From NCBI GenBank assembly GCA_030726725.1, contig JANRDC010000029.1, forward strand, positions 1 through 54,813: DNA of 54,813 nt. The letters are read 5' to 3'. Shown here in pieces: positions 14,614 through 23,474 of the stretch (positions are counted from its first letter, which is position 1; every line of letters starts with the position of its first letter). The position numbers and the translations under genes were made by a program. A model generated the notes under the pieces. It was not told where the DNA came from and did no database searches. It was given only the letters and a program-made list of their open reading frames with translations. Source of the stretch: Flavobacteriaceae bacterium. GTDB lineage: Bacteria; Bacteroidota; Bacteroidia; Flavobacteriales; Flavobacteriaceae.

Positions 14614-16161
<1,548 letters not shown>

Positions 16162-16170
16162 TTAGGATAC

Positions 16171-16455
16171 ATGCAACTAGATATCATTTCACCTGAATCC
16201 ACCCTTTTTTCTGGAGAAGTTACTTCGGTAACCGCCCCCGGAAAAGACGGTTCTTTTCAGATTTTAGAAAACCACGCGCCTATTGTTTCTGTATTGCAAG
16301 CGGGACAATTGCGCATTCAAGGGGTCGTTGGTGAGTTGCCTAAATCTGCGGCAGCCCTGTTCCAGAAAGCGGAAAAAGACACCTATTTATTGTCGGTTAG
16401 CGGAGGTACTTTAGAAATGTCACAGAACAAAATTGTTGTCTTGGCAGACGCTTAA
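16171..16455 (+). CDS. atpC: F-type ATP synthase subunit epsilon, short form
   Basis: A 94-residue epsilon subunit consisting only of the N-terminal beta-sandwich (LDIISPESTLFSGEVTSVTAPGKDG, FQILENHAPIVSVLQAG). The C-terminal pair of helices, which in E. coli and Bacillus can insert into F1 and block ATP hydrolysis, is absent. Short epsilon subunits are usual in Bacteroidota, so this is a lineage trait rather than a truncation. It is cotranscribed with atpD and followed by a strong terminator. Confidence 0.95.
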   Translation: MQLDIISPESTLFSGEVTSVTAPGKDGSFQILENHAPIVSVLQAGQLRIQGVVGELPKSAAALFQKAEKDTYLLSVSGGTLEMSQNKIVVLADA

Positions 16456-16476: not shown

Positions 16477-16504
16477 GCCGCCCACTAGGGCGGCTTTTTT
16501 TTTG
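16477..16504 (+). terminator. Rho-independent terminator after atpC
   Basis: Stem GCCGCCC (16477-16483) / GGGCGGC (16488-16494), loop ACTA, followed by nine T. The bioF -7 box begins 15 bp after the T-run. Confidence 0.93.
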
Positions 16505-16518
16505 TGGTGTTTCCCACT

Positions 16519-16526
16519 TATCTTTG
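16519..16526 (+). promoter_or_regulatory. -7 box of bioF, possibly giving a leaderless mRNA
   Basis: TATCTTTG fits TAnnTTTG and ends 4 bp before the bioF ATG at 16531. The nearest TTTG upstream (16501-16504) is only 14 bp away, so the -33 element is unclear. Confidence 0.5.
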
Positions 16527-16530
16527 GCCC

Positions 16531-17655
16531 ATGTCCCATTCTTTGCCCCCAAAGCTGAAACATCTTTTGGCACAGCGCGCCCACAGTGGATTGTTGCGCA
16601 CACCGAAAGTGTTGTCCGGCGTCGATTTTATGTCCAACGACTATTTTGGTTGGGCCAAGCAGGTCGATACCGGAACAGGATTGGCCTTGGGCGGAAGTGG
16701 ATCTCGATTGATTTCTGGACATACTGTCGCCCTAGAGGTTTTGGAGCAGAGGGCAGCAACTGATTGGGGTGGTGATCAGGCCTTGTTTTTCCCTTCAGGC
16801 TACGCCGCCAATATCGGTTTTTTTGCCTCAGTACCCCAAAGGGGAGATGTTGTTTTGGCGGATGCACATGTGCATGCCAGTATCGTCGATGGCCTTAGGC
16901 TGTCCATGGCCCATACCTTCAAGTTTGCACACAATGACCTCAATGACCTCAATGCCAAGGCGGTACATGCCCGTGCAAAAATGCACCCTGACGGGGTGCT
17001 GTTTGTGGTTACGGAAGGTCTTTTTTCTATGGATGGGGACTCCGCTCCCTTGTCGGCTATGGCTGATTGGTGCGCTGAGTTCGGCGCTTACTTAGTTGTG
17101 GACGAAGCCCACAGCACAGGAGTTTATGGAGAGCGAGGTGGCGGTTTGGTGCAGGATTTGGGCTTAGAAGACAAGGTCTGGGCCCGTTTGCTCACCCTGG
17201 GCAAGGCGATGGGACGACAAGGGGCATTTTGGTTGGTCGATCAACCCCTGAAATCTTTTTTGGTGAATTACGCCCGTTCTTTGATCTACAGCACCGCTCC
17301 TAGTCCTGCCGAGGTGGCACACATCACCCAAACCTTGATTTTGGCCCAGGAGCGCGGGCCCGAGGCCCGCGCTCAACTGAGAGAACGCATCCAATTTTTT
17401 CGCGACACCGCCCAAAATCTAGGTGTTTTGGATCACCTTTGGCCAGCTTTTGGACCGATACAGGCGTGGAAATGTCCCAGCCAACAGTCTGCTGTCCTAT
17501 GGGCAGAACAGGTGCAACAATCAGGGTTTGGCGTCAAGGCTATTTTGCCCCCTACCGTACCTGAGGGCACTGCAAGACTGCGTTTGTGTATTCATGCGGA
17601 CCACACCGACGAGGATATTGCAGGTTTGTTGTCCGCTTTAAAACAGTGTTTATGA
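16531..17655 (+). CDS. bioF: 8-amino-7-oxononanoate synthase
   Basis: PLP enzyme of the alpha-oxoamine synthase family that joins L-alanine and a pimeloyl thioester. Landmarks are FMSNDYFGWA, GSGSRLISGHTVALEVLEQ, the PLP-facing DEAHSTGVYGERG, and the catalytic lysine in LTLGKAMGRQGAFW. The ATG at 16531 is chosen; an in-frame start at 16504 would lie before the -7 box. 374 residues is normal. It opens the biotin locus, and its stop overlaps the bioD start (ATGA). Inside the gene are a perfect 11-bp hairpin (17350-17374) and a 2.5-copy 9-bp tandem repeat (16932-16954). Confidence 0.95.
   Translation: MSHSLPPKLKHLLAQRAHSGLLRTPKVLSGVDFMSNDYFGWAKQVDTGTGLALGGSGSRLISGHTVALEVLEQRAATDWGGDQALFFPSGYAANIGFFASVPQRGDVVLADAHVHASIVDGLRLSMAHTFKFAHNDLNDLNAKAVHARAKMHPDGVLFVVTEGLFSMDGDSAPLSAMADWCAEFGAYLVVDEAHSTGVYGERGGGLVQDLGLEDKVWARLLTLGKAMGRQGAFWLVDQPLKSFLVNYARSLIYSTAPSPAEVAHITQTLILAQERGPEARAQLRERIQFFRDTAQNLGVLDHLWPAFGPIQAWKCPSQQSAVLWAEQVQQSGFGVKAILPPTVPEGTARLRLCIHADHTDEDIAGLLSALKQCL
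16932..16954 (+). repeat. 2.5 copies of a 9-bp direct repeat in bioF
   Basis: CAATGACCT is repeated twice and then CAATG, encoding N-D-L-N-D-L-N. Being a multiple of three it keeps frame and probably arose by slippage. Confidence 0.7.
17350..17374. repeat. Intragenic GC-rich hairpin in bioF
   Basis: GAGCGCGGGCC (17350-17360) and GGCCCGCGCTC (17364-17374) are perfect 11-bp complements around the loop CGA, inside coding sequence for ERGPEARAQ. No T-run on either side. Confidence 0.93.
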
Positions 17656-18311
17656 GCAAAACCCCCCAACGGATTTTTGTCACAGGTATTTCTACTGAAG
17701 TCGGTAAAACAGTGGCCTCTGCAGTCTTGGTGCGCGCACTAAAAGCAGATTATTGGAAGCCGATACAGTGTGGTGACCTCCACGATTTGGAGTTTGAAAA
17801 AGTATTGGCCTGGGCAGATTGTCCCGAGTCTGAGGCACATCCCAGCAGTCATTTGCTCGAACATCCCATGAGTCCCCACGCAGCAGCCGAGCGGTCGGGA
17901 ATAAGGTTAAAGCTCAGCGATTTTACGCGTCCCAATCCCGACAAAACATTGGTCATTGAAGGGGCAGGCGGTGTTTTGGTGCCCTTAAACGACACAGACA
18001 CCGTAGCTGATTTGATGCAACCAGGCGATCAAGTGGTGGTGGTTTCCAGACATTATTTGGGCAGCATTAACCACAGTTTACTCACGGCTGAGGTGCTTAA
18101 GGCTCGAGGTATTCAAGGATTTTGGGTATTTAATGGAGATCCTAATCCAGAAACCGAATCCGTGATACTGTCCAAGACGGGTTGGCCATTTTTAGGGCGC
18201 TTGCTCCCAGAGCCCTTAATCGATGCAGATTGTATCGATCGATACGCTCAAGATTGGGGGAGGCGTTGGACCCAAATAACGGCTGAACCCAAGGTATCAG
18301 AGGCAAAATAG
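17652..18311 (+). CDS. bioD: Dethiobiotin synthetase
   Basis: ATP-dependent carboxylase closing the ureido ring of dethiobiotin. The BioD P-loop variant is seen as FVTGISTEVGKT at the N-terminus, followed by YWKPIQCG and the VIEGAGGVLVPL motif. The ATG at 17652 overlaps the bioF stop (ATGA), so translation is coupled. The protein has 219 residues. Its last 21 codons and stop (18248-18311) overlap in convergent orientation with the end of a glycosyltransferase gene on the other strand, an unusual arrangement inside a biosynthetic locus. Confidence 0.94.
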   Translation: MSKTPQRIFVTGISTEVGKTVASAVLVRALKADYWKPIQCGDLHDLEFEKVLAWADCPESEAHPSSHLLEHPMSPHAAAERSGIRLKLSDFTRPNPDKTLVIEGAGGVLVPLNDTDTVADLMQPGDQVVVVSRHYLGSINHSLLTAEVLKARGIQGFWVFNGDPNPETESVILSKTGWPFLGRLLPEPLIDADCIDRYAQDWGRRWTQITAEPKVSEAK

Positions 18312-19765
18312 CGTTGGTGAAGTGTCTGGTCAAGCTGGCGCTGCAGCGATAGGTGATCTTTGCCAAAAAGCGCTTTGGGGCCGGTGACTATGTATTGAGG
18401 ACTCAGTGTATCCAACAGATAACTCAGTTCCTCCTCGCTGGTTTTTCGGGGGTTAAAGTAGGGGAATAGCCCTTCTCTGGCGATATTACTCGGATGGGTA
18501 CTCGCTGCAGACAGCGGTTTTCCCCCCATGATCCAGCTTCCGATGTGGTATTCCAGCCAGAGCACACTTTGTGGGTCTACACCTTGGTTTTGCAAGGCGC
18601 GGGCCACCTCAAAGCCTTCACCCTGGGTGGCATATCCAGTCTTTATCAAGGTTTCCCCCCAACGATAGGCTTCCAGGTAGGATTCCACCGGCAAGAGCAA
18701 CATGCCCCAGGCAGTGATCAGCCGGGCCCTGTCCCCCATCGGTTTTAACGACCATCCGCTGAAAGACCAAGCCAGAGCGCACAGCCAGATCGGATAGACC
18801 AGCAGCAAATAGTGTCCGTTCAGCTTGCCCACAGACCAGATGCTGTAGGAAACACCGGCCAAAGCCCCCCAGATCATCCAAAATGAGGGTTTGGTGGCTT
18901 TATGCGGAGGTTTTATCAGCCATAATACTAAAGGAATCAGCAACCACAACACGATGGCCACCAGCCCGGGTGTCTGCATTTTTTGCAGTTGGGTGTAGGC
19001 CCAAGAGGCCAATACCGCCGAAGACCACAACAGCTCCAGGTGTTCCCGGTACAGCCAAGCGAACAGCGCGACAGGCACAGCTCCCGCCAAAGCCAGTTGA
19101 ACGATTTGGCGTGTATTTCTGACGGAGATCATCCAGGGCACGACCAGTCCCAAAACCGCATAGGCCATATTGAGTTTGGTAGCCACCGATAAACTGAGCA
19201 AGATTCCTGCGCACCAGATCAGCGCTGTTTTGTGTTGGGTAGACCTCAAGGTGCTTTGGATCAACGCCCAAACTCCCGGCATCCAGAAAAACAGCGCGAT
19301 GTGCTCGGACATCACTCCTTGAACGCTGCCAAATAAACTGAGCAGGGCCACCGTCAATGCCCCAAGCGCTTGAGCCGTGGTTTCTCTGGCGTGTATTCGA
19401 ATCAGTCGATAGGTGCTGTAGCCCACAGCGGCGACCAGTGCGGCGCCAATCAATCGTATCAACCAGAGGTGCTGGCCAAAAAGCCCCACCACCCCGGCAA
19501 AGTAGGCAAAGGTCATCGGTGGTTTTAGGTCCCAAAGTTCTGTGTAGGGCAGATGTCCCTCGGCCCAAGAAGTGCCCATGTGCACAAAAGTGCTTTCGTC
19601 TTTGTCGATGTAGTCCCGACCAAAAAATGGCCCACGGATCCAAATACTCCAGGCCAATAGGCCCAAAAAAACCAACAGAGGATGCGCCAAACGCCATCCA
19701 GAAAACGGAGTCCACGGGGCGGTTTGGGTCCTGGATTTAGCGCGGTAGTTTATGGGCGAGCGCAT
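18248..19765 (-). CDS. Polytopic GT-C glycosyltransferase, PMT/ArnT-like
   Basis: A 505-residue membrane protein with about ten to twelve hydrophobic helices. The first periplasmic loop carries the acidic pair in YIDKDESTFVH, followed by WDLKPPMTF, the layout of the ArnT/dolichyl-phosphate-mannose mannosyltransferase (GT39/GT83, PMT_2) group, which uses polyprenyl-phosphate sugars. A soluble C-terminal region follows. Acceptor and sugar cannot be told. It lies on the opposite strand between bioD and bioA, overlapping bioD by 64 bp at its 3' end and the possible upstream start of bioA at its 5' end. This suggests a gene that moved into a formerly continuous bio operon. Confidence 0.85.
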   Translation of the reverse strand: MRSPINYRAKSRTQTAPWTPFSGWRLAHPLLVFLGLLAWSIWIRGPFFGRDYIDKDESTFVHMGTSWAEGHLPYTELWDLKPPMTFAYFAGVVGLFGQHLWLIRLIGAALVAAVGYSTYRLIRIHARETTAQALGALTVALLSLFGSVQGVMSEHIALFFWMPGVWALIQSTLRSTQHKTALIWCAGILLSLSVATKLNMAYAVLGLVVPWMISVRNTRQIVQLALAGAVPVALFAWLYREHLELLWSSAVLASWAYTQLQKMQTPGLVAIVLWLLIPLVLWLIKPPHKATKPSFWMIWGALAGVSYSIWSVGKLNGHYLLLVYPIWLCALAWSFSGWSLKPMGDRARLITAWGMLLLPVESYLEAYRWGETLIKTGYATQGEGFEVARALQNQGVDPQSVLWLEYHIGSWIMGGKPLSAASTHPSNIAREGLFPYFNPRKTSEEELSYLLDTLSPQYIVTGPKALFGKDHLSLQRQLDQTLHQRYFASDTLGSAVIWVQRLPQS

Positions 19766-19811
19766 AGGCGGTTTGGTGGGTTTTTACGTTCTTTGCAAGA
19801 TAGAAAAATCC

Positions 19812-21113
19812 TTGATTCCAGAAGCATTGGCCCTATCACTTGCCCAAAGAGACCGCGCCCATTTATGGCACCCTTTAACCCAGCACAAAACCAGTCCATT
19901 GATGACTGCTTTGGTGCGCAGTGAAGGGATTTACTTGTACGACGAGGAAGGCAATCGGTATATGGACGGGATTTCTTCGTGGTATACCACTGTATACGGT
20001 CACAGACACCCGCATATTGTCGGTGCGATGAAACAGCAGCTCGACCAGCTCGATCAAGTGGTGTTTAGTGGATTTACCCACGAACCCGCGGTGTTGCTTT
20101 CCGAAAAATTGGTGTCACTGCTGCCCGAAGGCCAGCAAAAGCTGTTTTTTTCAGATAATGGATCCACAGCGATCGAAATTGGGATTAAGATGGCCCTGCA
20201 ATATTTTCACAACCAAGGGCAACCCAAAACGGTTTTGATGGCCTTGAACGATGGGTTCCACGGAGATACTTTTGGGGCGATGTCTGTTTCAGGGCTCAGC
20301 GTGTACAACGGCCCTTTTGAAGCTCATCTGATGCAGGTAGAGCGCATTGAGGTCCCCAGACACGACAATATTCAGGAACTGATCGACCAATTGGAAGCGC
20401 GGTTGACCGATCGCCCAGATGTAGCGGGTTTTGTCTACGAACCTTTGGTGCAAGGTGCTGCAGCCATGCAGATGCACGAACCGGAATATTTGGATCAAGT
20501 GTTGTCGGTGATGCGCAAACACGGGGTTTTGTTGATCGCCGATGAGGTCATGACCGGATTTGGCAAAACAGGGACCCTTTGGGCCAGTGACCAACTTCAG
20601 GTGAAACCAGATGTGATGTGCCTGTCCAAAGCCTTGACTGCAGGTGCCTTACCTATGGCGGTGACCACGTGCACCCAGCAGATGTTCGATGCTTTTTACA
20701 GCGACCACACCGCCCATGGATTGTTTCACGGGCACACGTATACCGCCCACCCATTGGCCTGTGCTGCGGCCATGGCCGCTTTGGATTTGGCCGTCGACCC
20801 AGAGGTGGTTCAGCGCAGAAAAATTATTGAAGTCATGCAGGCGGCCTACGCCGCCAAAAGGGCGGGCCACCCGCAGGTGGCCCGCATCCGGGCCAAAGGA
20901 GTGATTATGGCCCTGGATCTGGCCGTGGAAATCCCCAGATATGGAAGTTTTCGCGATACCATGTACCGCTGGTTTATGGATCGGGGATTGAGTATCCGAC
21001 CACTGGGCGCTACCTTATACCTGATGCCCCCTTTTATCACCACAGCGGAAGAGCTCCAACAAATGCACGATTTGTTTGATCAGTTCCTCGAAGAAATACC
21101 CGCTTTGTTGTGA
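19812..21113 (+). CDS. bioA: Adenosylmethionine--8-amino-7-oxononanoate aminotransferase
   Basis: PLP transaminase that makes 7,8-diaminononanoate using SAM as amino donor. Family motifs are AHLWHPLTQHK near the N-terminus, GISSWYTTVYGHRHP, FSDNGSTAIEIGIKMA, LIADEVMTGFGKTG and the PLP lysine in CLSKALTAG. The start is unresolved. I place it at TTG 19812 because the conserved region begins at about residue 15 from there; an ATG at 19752 would overlap the divergent glycosyltransferase start by 14 bp and add 20 non-family residues. The stop overlaps the next gene by one base (TGATG). Two adjacent GC-rich hairpins lie near the 3' end (20841-20886). Confidence 0.93.
   Translation: MIPEALALSLAQRDRAHLWHPLTQHKTSPLMTALVRSEGIYLYDEEGNRYMDGISSWYTTVYGHRHPHIVGAMKQQLDQLDQVVFSGFTHEPAVLLSEKLVSLLPEGQQKLFFSDNGSTAIEIGIKMALQYFHNQGQPKTVLMALNDGFHGDTFGAMSVSGLSVYNGPFEAHLMQVERIEVPRHDNIQELIDQLEARLTDRPDVAGFVYEPLVQGAAAMQMHEPEYLDQVLSVMRKHGVLLIADEVMTGFGKTGTLWASDQLQVKPDVMCLSKALTAGALPMAVTTCTQQMFDAFYSDHTAHGLFHGHTYTAHPLACAAAMAALDLAVDPEVVQRRKIIEVMQAAYAAKRAGHPQVARIRAKGVIMALDLAVEIPRYGSFRDTMYRWFMDRGLSIRPLGATLYLMPPFITTAEELQQMHDLFDQFLEEIPALL
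20841..20856. repeat. Intragenic hairpin 1 in bioA
   Basis: GGCGGC (20841-20846) / GCCGCC (20851-20856) with loop CTAC, perfect, inside coding sequence and 6 bp before a longer hairpin. Confidence 0.75.
20863..20886. repeat. Intragenic GC-rich hairpin 2 in bioA
   Basis: GCGGGCCACC (20863-20872) / GGTGGCCCGC (20877-20886) is a perfect 10-bp stem with loop CGCA. With the two preceding G residues the 5' arm reads GGGCGGGCCACC, close to the arm of the inverted repeat in the neighbouring ketosynthase gene. Confidence 0.92.
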
Positions 21114-22300
21114 TGGATCAAGCGAAACAACCGGTGATTTCAATTCGTTCTTGGGCCTCGCTGTCTGCCTTGGGAAGCAGTGATGCTGAAGTGTTGGCCT
21201 CCTATCAATCGACCGAAAGTTCATTGACCCCTTGGTCAGTACCCCACCACCATCAAATGGTGGAGACCTGGGCGGGTCGCCTGACACCTCAAGGCCAACA
21301 ACAGTGTGCGGATCTCCAGGCGACCCGCCCTGATTACGCCTCTTTGGATCCTTCGGTGTGGTATGCTTTAATCGCAGCCCGCCGCGCTTTTCATCAGTCT
21401 GGTTGGGATCAGCAAACGCCTGTGGGGATCAACATCGGTTCTTCCCGAGGAGCTACCCAAACCTGGGAGTCCGCTCATGCGGATTTTGTACAGGGTGGGC
21501 GCATACCCGTATTGACCTCTCCGCTGACTACTTTGGGAAACCTCTCCACTTGGGTCGCTCAGGATTTAGGTGTACAGGGGCCTGAATTTTCGCATTCGAT
21601 CACCTGTTCTACTTCCTTGCACGCGTTGCTCAATGCCGTGGCTTGGATGCGGGCAGGTATGGTTTCCCGTTTTTTGGTCGGCGGTAGTGAGGCTGCTTTG
21701 ACCCCCTTTACCTGGGCCCAAATGAAAGCGCTTAAACTCGTTTCTTCCCTGAATGACCCCTATCCCTGTCGCGCGTTAGATCCCCTCAAAAAGGCCAATA
21801 CCATGGTCTTGGGCGAGGGCGCAGCAGCCCTTTGCCTGGAAGTAGGTATCCGACCAGGTGCTCAAGCGGTTGTTTTAGGGGTGGGATATGCTACCGAGGC
21901 ATTGGCCCATGCTATTTCTATTTCTGATGAGGCGGATTGCTTTGTCCGATCGATGCACATGGCCTTGGGGGTTCACGACCCCTGTCAAATAGATGCCGTA
22001 GTCATGCATGCTCCCGGAACAGTCAAAGGAGATCGCGCAGAAAACGCCGCCATAGATGCCGTATTCGGCGCTCGAGCGCCCTGGCGAACCTCCCACAAAT
22101 GGCGCACCGGACACACCTTTGGCGCCTCAGGCGCTTTGGGCTTGGAATGCGCGTTGTTGATGTTGAAACACCAGCATTTGCCAGGTATTCCCTACCTGAA
22201 CCAACCTGTTTGGCAGCCAGCCTCTGTAAGGCGGGTGATGGTCAATGCGGTAGGCTTTGGGGGAAATGCGGTTTCCGTATTGTTGGGCCTTCCGGAGTAA
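21113..22300 (+). CDS. Beta-ketoacyl synthase (KAS I/II-like) of the biotin locus
   Basis: A 395-residue condensing enzyme of the FabF/KAS fold. The catalytic triad is intact and spaced as in FabF: Cys165 in SITCSTSLHA, His299 in MHAPGTVKGDRAEN and His334 in GHTFGASGALG; GFGGNAVSVL is the C-terminal glycine loop. It departs from housekeeping FabF in the N-terminus and around the first histidine (HAPGTVKGD instead of HGTSTPLND), so it is a diverged paralogue. It sits between bioA (1-bp overlap) and bioB, and no bioC or bioH is visible in the window. I infer that it works in making the pimeloyl thioester used by BioF. Inverted repeats lie inside it (21247-21263, 21270-21330, 22067-22080). Confidence 0.88.
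   Translation: MDQAKQPVISIRSWASLSALGSSDAEVLASYQSTESSLTPWSVPHHHQMVETWAGRLTPQGQQQCADLQATRPDYASLDPSVWYALIAARRAFHQSGWDQQTPVGINIGSSRGATQTWESAHADFVQGGRIPVLTSPLTTLGNLSTWVAQDLGVQGPEFSHSITCSTSLHALLNAVAWMRAGMVSRFLVGGSEAALTPFTWAQMKALKLVSSLNDPYPCRALDPLKKANTMVLGEGAAALCLEVGIRPGAQAVVLGVGYATEALAHAISISDEADCFVRSMHMALGVHDPCQIDAVVMHAPGTVKGDRAENAAIDAVFGARAPWRTSHKWRTGHTFGASGALGLECALLMLKHQHLPGIPYLNQPVWQPASVRRVMVNAVGFGGNAVSVLLGLPE
21247..21263. repeat. Intragenic short hairpin in ketosynthase gene
   Basis: CCACCAT (21247-21253) / ATGGTGG (21257-21263) with loop CAA, immediately before a long inverted repeat. Confidence 0.8.
21270..21330. repeat. 14-bp perfect inverted repeat with 33-nt spacer in ketosynthase gene
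   Basis: GGGCGGGTCGCCTG (21270-21283) and CAGGCGACCCGCCC (21317-21330) are exact complements, 11 of 14 bases being G or C. The repeat lies within coding sequence for the region GRLTPQG...LQATRPD. Confidence 0.93.
22067..22080. repeat. 14-bp perfect palindrome in ketosynthase gene
   Basis: GGCGCTCGAGCGCC is its own reverse complement, inside the coding sequence between the two active-site histidines. Confidence 0.85.
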
Positions 22301-22397: not shown

Positions 22398-23474
22398 ATG
22401 CAACAGTCTTGGACCAAAGAAGCCATACTAGAATTATACCATACCCCACTGATGGACTTGATGTACCGCGCAGCATCAGTGCACCGTACCCACCACGATC
22501 CCAATACCGTACAGGTTTCGACCTTGTTGTCGATAAAAACCGGTGGATGCCCTGAAGATTGTGGCTATTGCCCACAAGCAGCACGATACCACACGGATTT
22601 GGAAGGCAATGATTTGATGAGTGTTGCTCAAGTGAAAGCGCAAGCTTTGCGGGCAAAAGCATCAGGCAGTTCACGTGTTTGTATGGGAGCGGCCTGGCGC
22701 AATGTCAAGGATGGTCCAGAGTTCGACAATGTGTTGGAGATGGTGCGTACCATTAACAAACTCGATATGGAGGTGTGCTGCACCTTAGGCATGATCACTG
22801 AAAATCAAGCCAAGCGTCTTGCAGAGGCAGGTCTTTACGCCTACAACCACAATTTGGACACTTCTGAGGATTATTACAAGGACGTGATTTCCACCCGGGC
22901 CTTTCAAGACCGTTTGGACACCATCGAAAATGTGCGCAAGACCAATGTAACGGTCTGTAGCGGGGGTATTATTGGGATGGGAGAGTCTGTGGAGGACCGT
23001 GCTGGTATGTTGGTGGCCTTGTCCTCGCTGAGTCCACAGCCTGAGTCAGTGCCCATCAATGCCCTAGTGCCCGTAGAGGGCACGCCTTTGGAGGACCAAC
23101 CGATCATTCCGATTTGGGACATGATTCGCATGATTGCTACCACCCGAATTGTGATGCCCCATACCCAGGTACGCCTATCAGCGGGACGCACCCAAATGAG
23201 TCAAGAAGGCCAGGCGATGTGCTTTTTTGCGGGCGCTAACTCGATATTTGCCGGGGATAAATTGTTGACCACACCCAATCCAGACATAGAACAAGACAAG
23301 GCCTTATTCGACTTGTTGGGACTCGTTCCGCAAAAGCCATTTGTGAAACACAGTCAGCCGTTGACCGTTGAAGCGTCCGATAGCGCTTGGACGGCTTTGG
23401 GCGAGAAGCCAAAATGGACGCGCCCTGGGCATGAAATTGAACGCAACAAGGCCAAGGAGCGCAAAGCGCAATAA
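22398..23474 (+). CDS. bioB: Biotin synthase
   Basis: Radical SAM enzyme inserting sulfur into dethiobiotin. The SAM-cluster motif CxxxCxxC is present as GGCPEDCGYCPQ, preceded by VQVSTLLSIKTG. Residues of the second [2Fe-2S] cluster lie in the expected positions (SSRVCMGAAWR, LDMEVCCTLGM, and RLSAGRTQMSQEGQAMCFFAGANSIF with the arginine). The protein has 358 residues. The 97-bp upstream gap with an inverted repeat suggests its own promoter in addition to readthrough from bioA-ketosynthase. The gene converges on recX with 6 bp between stops. Confidence 0.98.
   Translation: MQQSWTKEAILELYHTPLMDLMYRAASVHRTHHDPNTVQVSTLLSIKTGGCPEDCGYCPQAARYHTDLEGNDLMSVAQVKAQALRAKASGSSRVCMGAAWRNVKDGPEFDNVLEMVRTINKLDMEVCCTLGMITENQAKRLAEAGLYAYNHNLDTSEDYYKDVISTRAFQDRLDTIENVRKTNVTVCSGGIIGMGESVEDRAGMLVALSSLSPQPESVPINALVPVEGTPLEDQPIIPIWDMIRMIATTRIVMPHTQVRLSAGRTQMSQEGQAMCFFAGANSIFAGDKLLTTPNPDIEQDKALFDLLGLVPQKPFVKHSQPLTVEASDSAWTALGEKPKWTRPGHEIERNKAKERKAQ

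Follow-up and report, generated by a model that had tools for sequence, protein, structure and literature searches.

A ketosynthase of the flavobacterial biotin cluster as the probable missing enzyme for the seven-carbon start of biotin

This study deals with a stretch of 54,813 nucleotides (the window) from a Flavobacteriaceae bacterium (assembly GCA_030726725.1, contig JANRDC010000029.1, positions 1 to 54,813), and within it with a ketosynthase gene that lies between the biotin genes bioA and bioB. We propose that this ketosynthase of the flavobacterial biotin cluster is probably the missing enzyme for biotin's seven-carbon start. Comparison of sequences points to a dedicated synthase of 3-oxopimeloyl-acyl carrier protein (3-oxopimeloyl-ACP), derived from the beta-ketoacyl-ACP synthases (KAS) of the KAS I/II type (FabF/FabB), a reading to which we give a probability of about 0.7. 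The original prediction for this DNA had put forward a dedicated pimeloyl-forming ketosynthase, BioZ-like in role and of another KAS subfamily. The comparison across genomes supports it through the lack in the host of BioC over cut-off, of BioW and of BioE, through linkage and co-occurrence with bioA, the presence of BioE instead in another family of the order, a separate clade and an arginine in the acyl pocket. We further consider it fairly likely that the enzyme represents a fifth pimeloyl route, derived from KAS I/II independently of BioZ and with an Arg/Ser pocket, which would serve the biotin-making Flavobacteriaceae (20 of the 20 bioA-positive genomes sampled) and scattered Bacteroidota. 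The gene is as follows:

21113..22300, + strand: biotin-linked KAS I/II-type ketosynthase, 395 aa (open reading frame, Pfam, NCBIfam, AlphaFold2 model)

Co-occurrence with bioA and replacement by BioE

Two samples were searched, one of the host's class (149 genomes) and one of its phylum (296 genomes). At least 12 of the class genomes carry the ketosynthase, 30 loci and some further stretches having been inspected residue by residue and weaker matches being assigned by score to FabF or other KAS, and in all 12 both bioA and bioB exceed their cut-offs, as against 84 of the 149 overall. Within the host's own family 30 genomes were sampled, 20 with the ketosynthase and 10 lacking it; bioA exceeds its cut-off in every one of the former and in none of the latter (Fisher 3.3e-8, with kinship ignored). 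In the phylum sample 28 genomes have a match at E<=1e-50, which alignment divides into 24 biotin-linked ketosynthases and four FabF-type paralogues. The four (G239, G339, G359 and G388; L190-L193) were removed from the ketosynthase-bearing set, as was a second match in G193 (L194), also FabF-type by alignment. Three more distant genomes matched only via FabF (G339, G359, G388) do have bioA, and G339, the one inspected, has a BioC-like gene in its cluster.

A second family of the same order (f2) has bioA in five of six genomes; all five of these carry BioE within their bio clusters and lack the ketosynthase. BioE was searched for with an alignment of four proteins, chosen for a position next to bioF or bioA and for the spacing of their diiron ligands. 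In one of these loci (L132) the ligands are E28, E55, H58, E127, E157 and H160, with the spacing published for EmBioE. The class sample gave a BioE match in 6 of 149 genomes.

As a separate observation, BioE genes next to bioF or bioA were recognised in f2 and also in three other families belonging to the class (L132, L134, L137, L140, L195-L198).

Linkage to biotin genes across relatives

Gene order was compared in the best 80 of 574 relatives, by title mostly Flavobacteriaceae, referred to here as the named loci. The ketosynthase directly follows bioA in 67 of them, with gaps of -4 to 271 bases as set by the caller of open reading frames (ORFs); bioA is contained in the stretch in 78 of the 80, and bioB in 53. 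Among the 1375 ORFs of these loci no BioC- or BioE-like protein was found at E<=1e-5. The ketosynthase is linked to bioA or bioF in nine GTDB families. In families other than the host's it likewise follows bioA, and one of the nine belongs to a different class of the phylum; there the ketosynthase lies near bioA (G178). Three genomes (G028, G105, G109) have the genes together as bioB-F-D-A-ketosynthase. It adjoins bioF rather than bioA in four genomes of one family and also in G308.

Divergent ketosynthases that abut or overlap bioF were also observed (L007, L008, L010, L015, L188).

Fold, catalytic residues and placement among KAS enzymes

The protein matches the two Pfam domains PF00109 and PF02801. 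For the KAS III domains, PF08541 gave no match and PF08545 reached 21.1 bits, below its cut-off of 24, while all NCBIfam KAS models stay far under their cut-offs (TIGR03150 fabF, 131.8 against 493.75; PRK07967, 82 against 630). Alignment places Cys165, His299, Lys329 and His334 over Cys164, His304, Lys336 and His341 of E. coli FabF (Met counted), so that the intact Cys165-His299-His334 set named in the original prediction holds, as does the divergence around the first His, which reads HAPGT here and HGTST in E. coli FabF. His299, Pro301, Gly302 and Thr303 are invariant across 19 aligned biotin-linked ketosynthases. The catalytic codons are:

21605..21607, + strand: catalytic Cys165 (TGT; sequence, alignment)
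22007..22009, + strand: catalytic His299 (CAT), in the HAPGT motif (sequence, alignment)
22097..22099, + strand: Lys329 (alignment)
22112..22114, + strand: catalytic His334 (alignment)

The AlphaFold2 (AF2) model has a mean predicted local distance difference test score (pLDDT) of 89.0 and a predicted template modelling score (pTM) of 0.91, and the closest folds in the PDB are FabF structures, 4ls6 among them. A canonical FabF is kept elsewhere in the host genome.

A tree was built from 22 biotin-linked ketosynthases and 32 other KAS I/II enzymes, including E. coli FabF, E. coli FabB and the host FabF, with the Arg column left out. One branch, with support 100/99, divides the 22 from the 32, and the placement that had been suggested as a check puts the window protein outside FabF/FabB. 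Deep branching order within the biotin-linked side is uncertain, and L006 forms a long branch. Taken together, the enzyme shares with FabF/FabB the fold, the Cys-His-His set plus Lys and both Pfam domains, but differs from them in its separate clade and its low scores against their models. A search of plasmids returned only distant ketosynthases (781 records, each <60% identity).

A charged residue in the acyl pocket

Two positions set the biotin-linked enzymes apart from FabF, where the window protein has Arg for Ile108 and Ser for Val134:

21446..21448, + strand: Arg112 (CGA), at the FabF Ile108 position in the acyl pocket (sequence, alignment)
21518..21520, + strand: Ser136, at the FabF Val134 position (alignment)

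All 22 biotin-linked rows have Arg at the Ile108 position, as against none of the 32 others, which have Ile, Val, Asn or a gap. A second set of 24 biotin-linked rows, which repeats three genomes of the earlier 22, has Arg in all 24, with Ile or Val in five of five others. Of the 22 enzymes, 19 (the window protein included) were compared with the window protein, to which they are 26-84% identical. Ser is likewise found at the Val134 position in all 22 and all 24 rows. The biotin-linked enzymes differ from FabF at two more positions: Phe133 is replaced by Thr, Ser, Ala or Leu, and Ala162 by Thr in all rows but one. FabF positions 133-134 are presumably the sites that reach into the pocket of the neighbouring subunit. 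By these alignments, a charged residue is fixed in the normally hydrophobic pocket of the putative biotin enzymes. Passages of two papers on FabF bear on the first position: I108 and F202 are described as gating residues of the acyl pocket (PMC7138838), and an I108F mutation alters the pocket of B. subtilis FabF (PMC3996569).

Known pimeloyl routes in the host genome

The host genome (1.73 Mb in 31 contigs, 98.4% complete) was searched for the known routes, as the original prediction had advised. No BioC exceeded the TIGR02072 cut-off of 184.95. The best of ten matches reached 44.9 bits and is a UbiE/MenG protein (PF01209, 225.6 bits), matches 2-5 are other methyltransferases, and none of the ten is on the window contig. 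BioW was rejected, with no match genome-wide at E<=1, and so was BioE, with no match at E<=0.001. Three KAS III genes are present, all on contigs other than that of the bio genes, which excludes a BioZ-type KAS III from the bio cluster. The host also has a glutaryl-CoA dehydrogenase-like gene, whose best matches among solved structures are glutaryl-CoA dehydrogenases (E 7e-117), which suggests that glutaryl-CoA occurs there.

The absence of a known pimeloyl gene is weak evidence by itself, because another route, a missed BioC or overlooked divergent ketosynthases are possible; more weight is given to linkage, co-occurrence within the family, the presence of BioE instead and the pocket.

Proposed mechanism

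In the mechanism that we favor, the starter loaded on Cys165 would most likely be glutaryl taken from glutaryl-CoA, and Arg112 would bind the free omega-carboxylate of this short dicarboxylic acyl group, perhaps helped by Ser136 reaching in from the partner subunit. Condensation with malonyl-ACP would then yield 3-oxopimeloyl-ACP, which the ordinary FabG/FabZ/FabI cycle would reduce to the pimeloyl-ACP taken by BioF. With the free carboxylate bound by Arg112 (and Ser136), the methyl masking performed by BioC would not be needed. We propose that a free-acid starter is condensed with malonyl-ACP in this way because the pocket change resembles that of BioZ, in a different KAS family.

Comparison with BioZ and BioE

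According to passages of PMC7645780, BioC exists because a free carboxylate was thought not to be tolerated by the enzymes of fatty-acid synthesis (FAS), and BioZ uses glutaryl-CoA and malonyl-ACP as substrates. S84, R147 and S287 of BioZ lie at the bottom of its tunnel, where they are proposed in part of PMC8024396 to neutralise the free carboxylate. The flavobacterial enzyme resembles BioZ of alpha-proteobacteria and Rhodothermus in that both ketosynthase genes lie within a biotin cluster, here in a genome with no BioC over cut-off. The likeness also includes what these two sources report of BioZ, namely that it bypasses BioC and BioH and has a proposed Arg and Ser at the bottom of its acyl pocket. 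They differ in family, as BioZ belongs to FabH/KAS III and has Cys-His-Asn whereas the flavobacterial one is a KAS I/II enzyme with Cys-His-His and Lys. In this sense, we infer that the latter may be BioZ-like in function, not BioZ by family, and that its origin is independent.

BioE, a diiron oxygenase known from Weeksellaceae and Chlamydia, occupies the bio cluster of f2 where the host's family has the ketosynthase. The two proteins are unrelated: BioE is ferritin-like and cleaves long-chain acyl groups, as stated in passages of PMC12915131.

The open-licence papers searched describe no KAS I/II enzyme devoted to biotin synthesis, and in the searchable literature BioE is the only named pimeloyl gene that we found for Flavobacteriia. 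The last four biotin genes are reported in PMC9561691 from the vast majority of Flavobacteriia of one set, and such frequent late genes fit a hidden pimeloyl step. If the proposed role is true, the first half of biotin synthesis would be filled for a large bacterial group in which the late genes are common, and a condensing enzyme would have been recruited a second time, independently, to the pimeloyl step. It would also point to a simple rule, a charged pocket residue for making free-acid acyl chains, and predictions of vitamin auxotrophy that depend on finding BioC or BioW would have to be corrected.

Evidence to the contrary and alternative explanations

Several observations weigh against the proposed role. 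In the class sample the ketosynthase and BioE never occur together, but with 12 and 6 of 84 genomes this is not significant (p=0.59). Up to 64 of the 84 class genomes with bioA and bioB lack the ketosynthase, BioE and BioC over cut-off, a figure that is an upper bound as not all weaker ketosynthase matches were inspected; some other pimeloyl route probably exists, and the host could be using it as well. Since only 2 of the 149 class genomes have a match above the BioC cut-off, the model could overlook a divergent BioC, and two of the host's five best BioC matches (L044, L047) are methyltransferases that fit no specific family. Glutaryl-CoA dehydrogenase, present in 137 of the 149 class genomes, is nearly universal there and is thus neither specific nor a discriminator. 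As regards the pocket, the 80 named loci were fetched partly by a pattern that contained the Arg motif, which biases Arg conservation among them; Ser at the Val134 position is also found in a FabF-type paralogue (L194, one of five in the second set); and the AF2 model is a monomer with pLDDT <50 at residues 136-141. In a passage of PMC8024396, BioZ R147A was the mildest mutant and kept partial activity while S84A and S287A failed to support growth, so the Arg need not be the decisive residue. Finally, in one genome (G138) the ketosynthase stands alone, away from bio genes, and a Cupin_8 (JmjC-like) gene, possibly an enzyme, directly follows bioB in 32 of the 80 named loci.

The alternative that survives best keeps the same role and changes the starter. 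Here, as a tentative second choice, the ketosynthase itself would make glutaryl from malonyl kept without decarboxylation, in two rounds (malonyl to 3-oxoglutaryl, glutaryl to 3-oxopimeloyl), as an unmasked form of the BioC route. KAS I/II enzymes normally elongate ACP-bound chains (part of PMC7645780), a charged pocket would make methylation unnecessary, and the dehydrogenase that would supply glutaryl-CoA is not specific to ketosynthase-bearing genomes, all of which would suit a malonyl start. A single Arg would however have to serve both C3 and C5 carboxylates, the FAS reductases would need to accept a C5 free acid, and BioZ uses glutaryl-CoA, with no malonyl adduct seen on it in the passages of PMC7645780 that treat its substrates. 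By analogy with BioZ, glutaryl-CoA would be the likelier starter. If malonyl were the starter, this would be direct, unmasked synthesis of a dicarboxylic fatty acid, thought not to be tolerated by hydrophobic FAS active sites.

An accessory role, in which the ketosynthase helps or regulates (for instance by raising the flux of short acyl-ACP) while pimeloyl comes from a route shared with other Bacteroidota, would account for the bioA- and bioB-bearing class genomes, up to 64 of 84, with none of the three markers. We hold it to be unlikely, as it sits poorly with the 20 of 20 against 0 of 10 co-occurrence in the host's family, the intact catalytic residues and invariant pocket Arg, and the replacement of the ketosynthase by BioE in another family of the order.

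Less probable still is a BioC/BioH-type pathway with a highly divergent methyltransferase, where the ketosynthase would be a dedicated elongase of malonyl-ACP methyl ester. The strictness of the BioC model and the presence in the host of at least two unassigned methyltransferases leave some room for it; on the other side, the best host match is UbiE/MenG, no BioC-like ORF occurs in the 80 named bio loci, and a pocket Arg would be needless for a methyl ester. We consider it very improbable that an ordinary FabF paralogue hitch-hikes in the cluster, as the KAS fold and motifs alone would allow, and reject a plain duplicate, given the pocket residues in the alignment, the separate clade (100/99), the tie to bioA or bioF that nine GTDB families, one from another class, have kept, and the canonical FabF elsewhere in the host. 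The dedicated 3-oxopimeloyl-ACP synthase is the reading that we retain.

The biotin locus in the window

The four late biotin genes accompany the ketosynthase on the same strand:

16504..17655, + strand: bioF (ORF; translation may truly begin at an inner ATG; TIGR00858, 320.9 bits)
17586..18311, + strand: bioD (ORF; likely true start ATG at about 17652; TIGR00347, 92.6 bits, over cut-off)
19752..21113, + strand: bioA (TIGR00508, 515.9 bits, over cut-off)
22398..23474, + strand: bioB (TIGR00433, 398.6 bits, over cut-off)

The bioF score is under the TIGR00858 cut-off of 426.45, yet this model is the top one among 11 families in NCBIfam. The ketosynthase ORF starts with the ATG at 21113 and its stop ends at 22300; the bioA stop TGA (21111-21113) shares one base with this ATG (TGATG), and 97 bases separate the ketosynthase stop from the bioB start. 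These positions bear out the original prediction as to the four bio genes (with bioF below the strict cut-off) and the 1-bp overlap of a ketosynthase set between bioA and bioB. Its statement that the window has no bioC/bioH, bioW or bioI agrees with the Pfam scan of 27 other window ORFs, in which no methyltransferase, alpha/beta-hydrolase or P450 was found (the window has 42 ORFs of >=110 aa). The Cupin_8 gene mentioned above does not adjoin bioB in the window, and the host genome was not searched for it; it is present in 35 of the 80 named loci (for example L081, 14569-15429).

The bio locus is not one uninterrupted operon, because a membrane protein encoded on the minus strand (18248-19765), with a weak PMT_2 match, separates bioD from bioA. 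Its homologues occur in 14 of the 80 named loci, in 13 of them between bioD and bioA. The gene after bioB is recX.

Other genes around biotin genes in relatives

Among loci without the ketosynthase, three (L143, L144, L145) have the cluster bioA-bioD-bioF-x-bioB without an evident pimeloyl enzyme, where x resembles an outer-membrane or repeat protein. Inspection by eye of some neighbours of the bio genes in seven loci without the ketosynthase revealed no evident new enzyme.

A small DUF2007-like gene (21.3 bits, below the cut-off of 25.7) is present in 41 of the 80 named loci, in 40 of them in the interval between bioF and bioD (for example L111, 7557-7961), and a gene pair with a Band_7 protein follows the ketosynthase in 15 of the 80. 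Neither is found beside the biotin genes of the window, where atpD- and atpC-like genes (14620-16455) lie a short way upstream of bioF. The atpD/atpC pair occurs close to or ahead of bioF in some 30 of the 80 named loci, and in 11 atpC is the immediate upstream neighbour of bioF.

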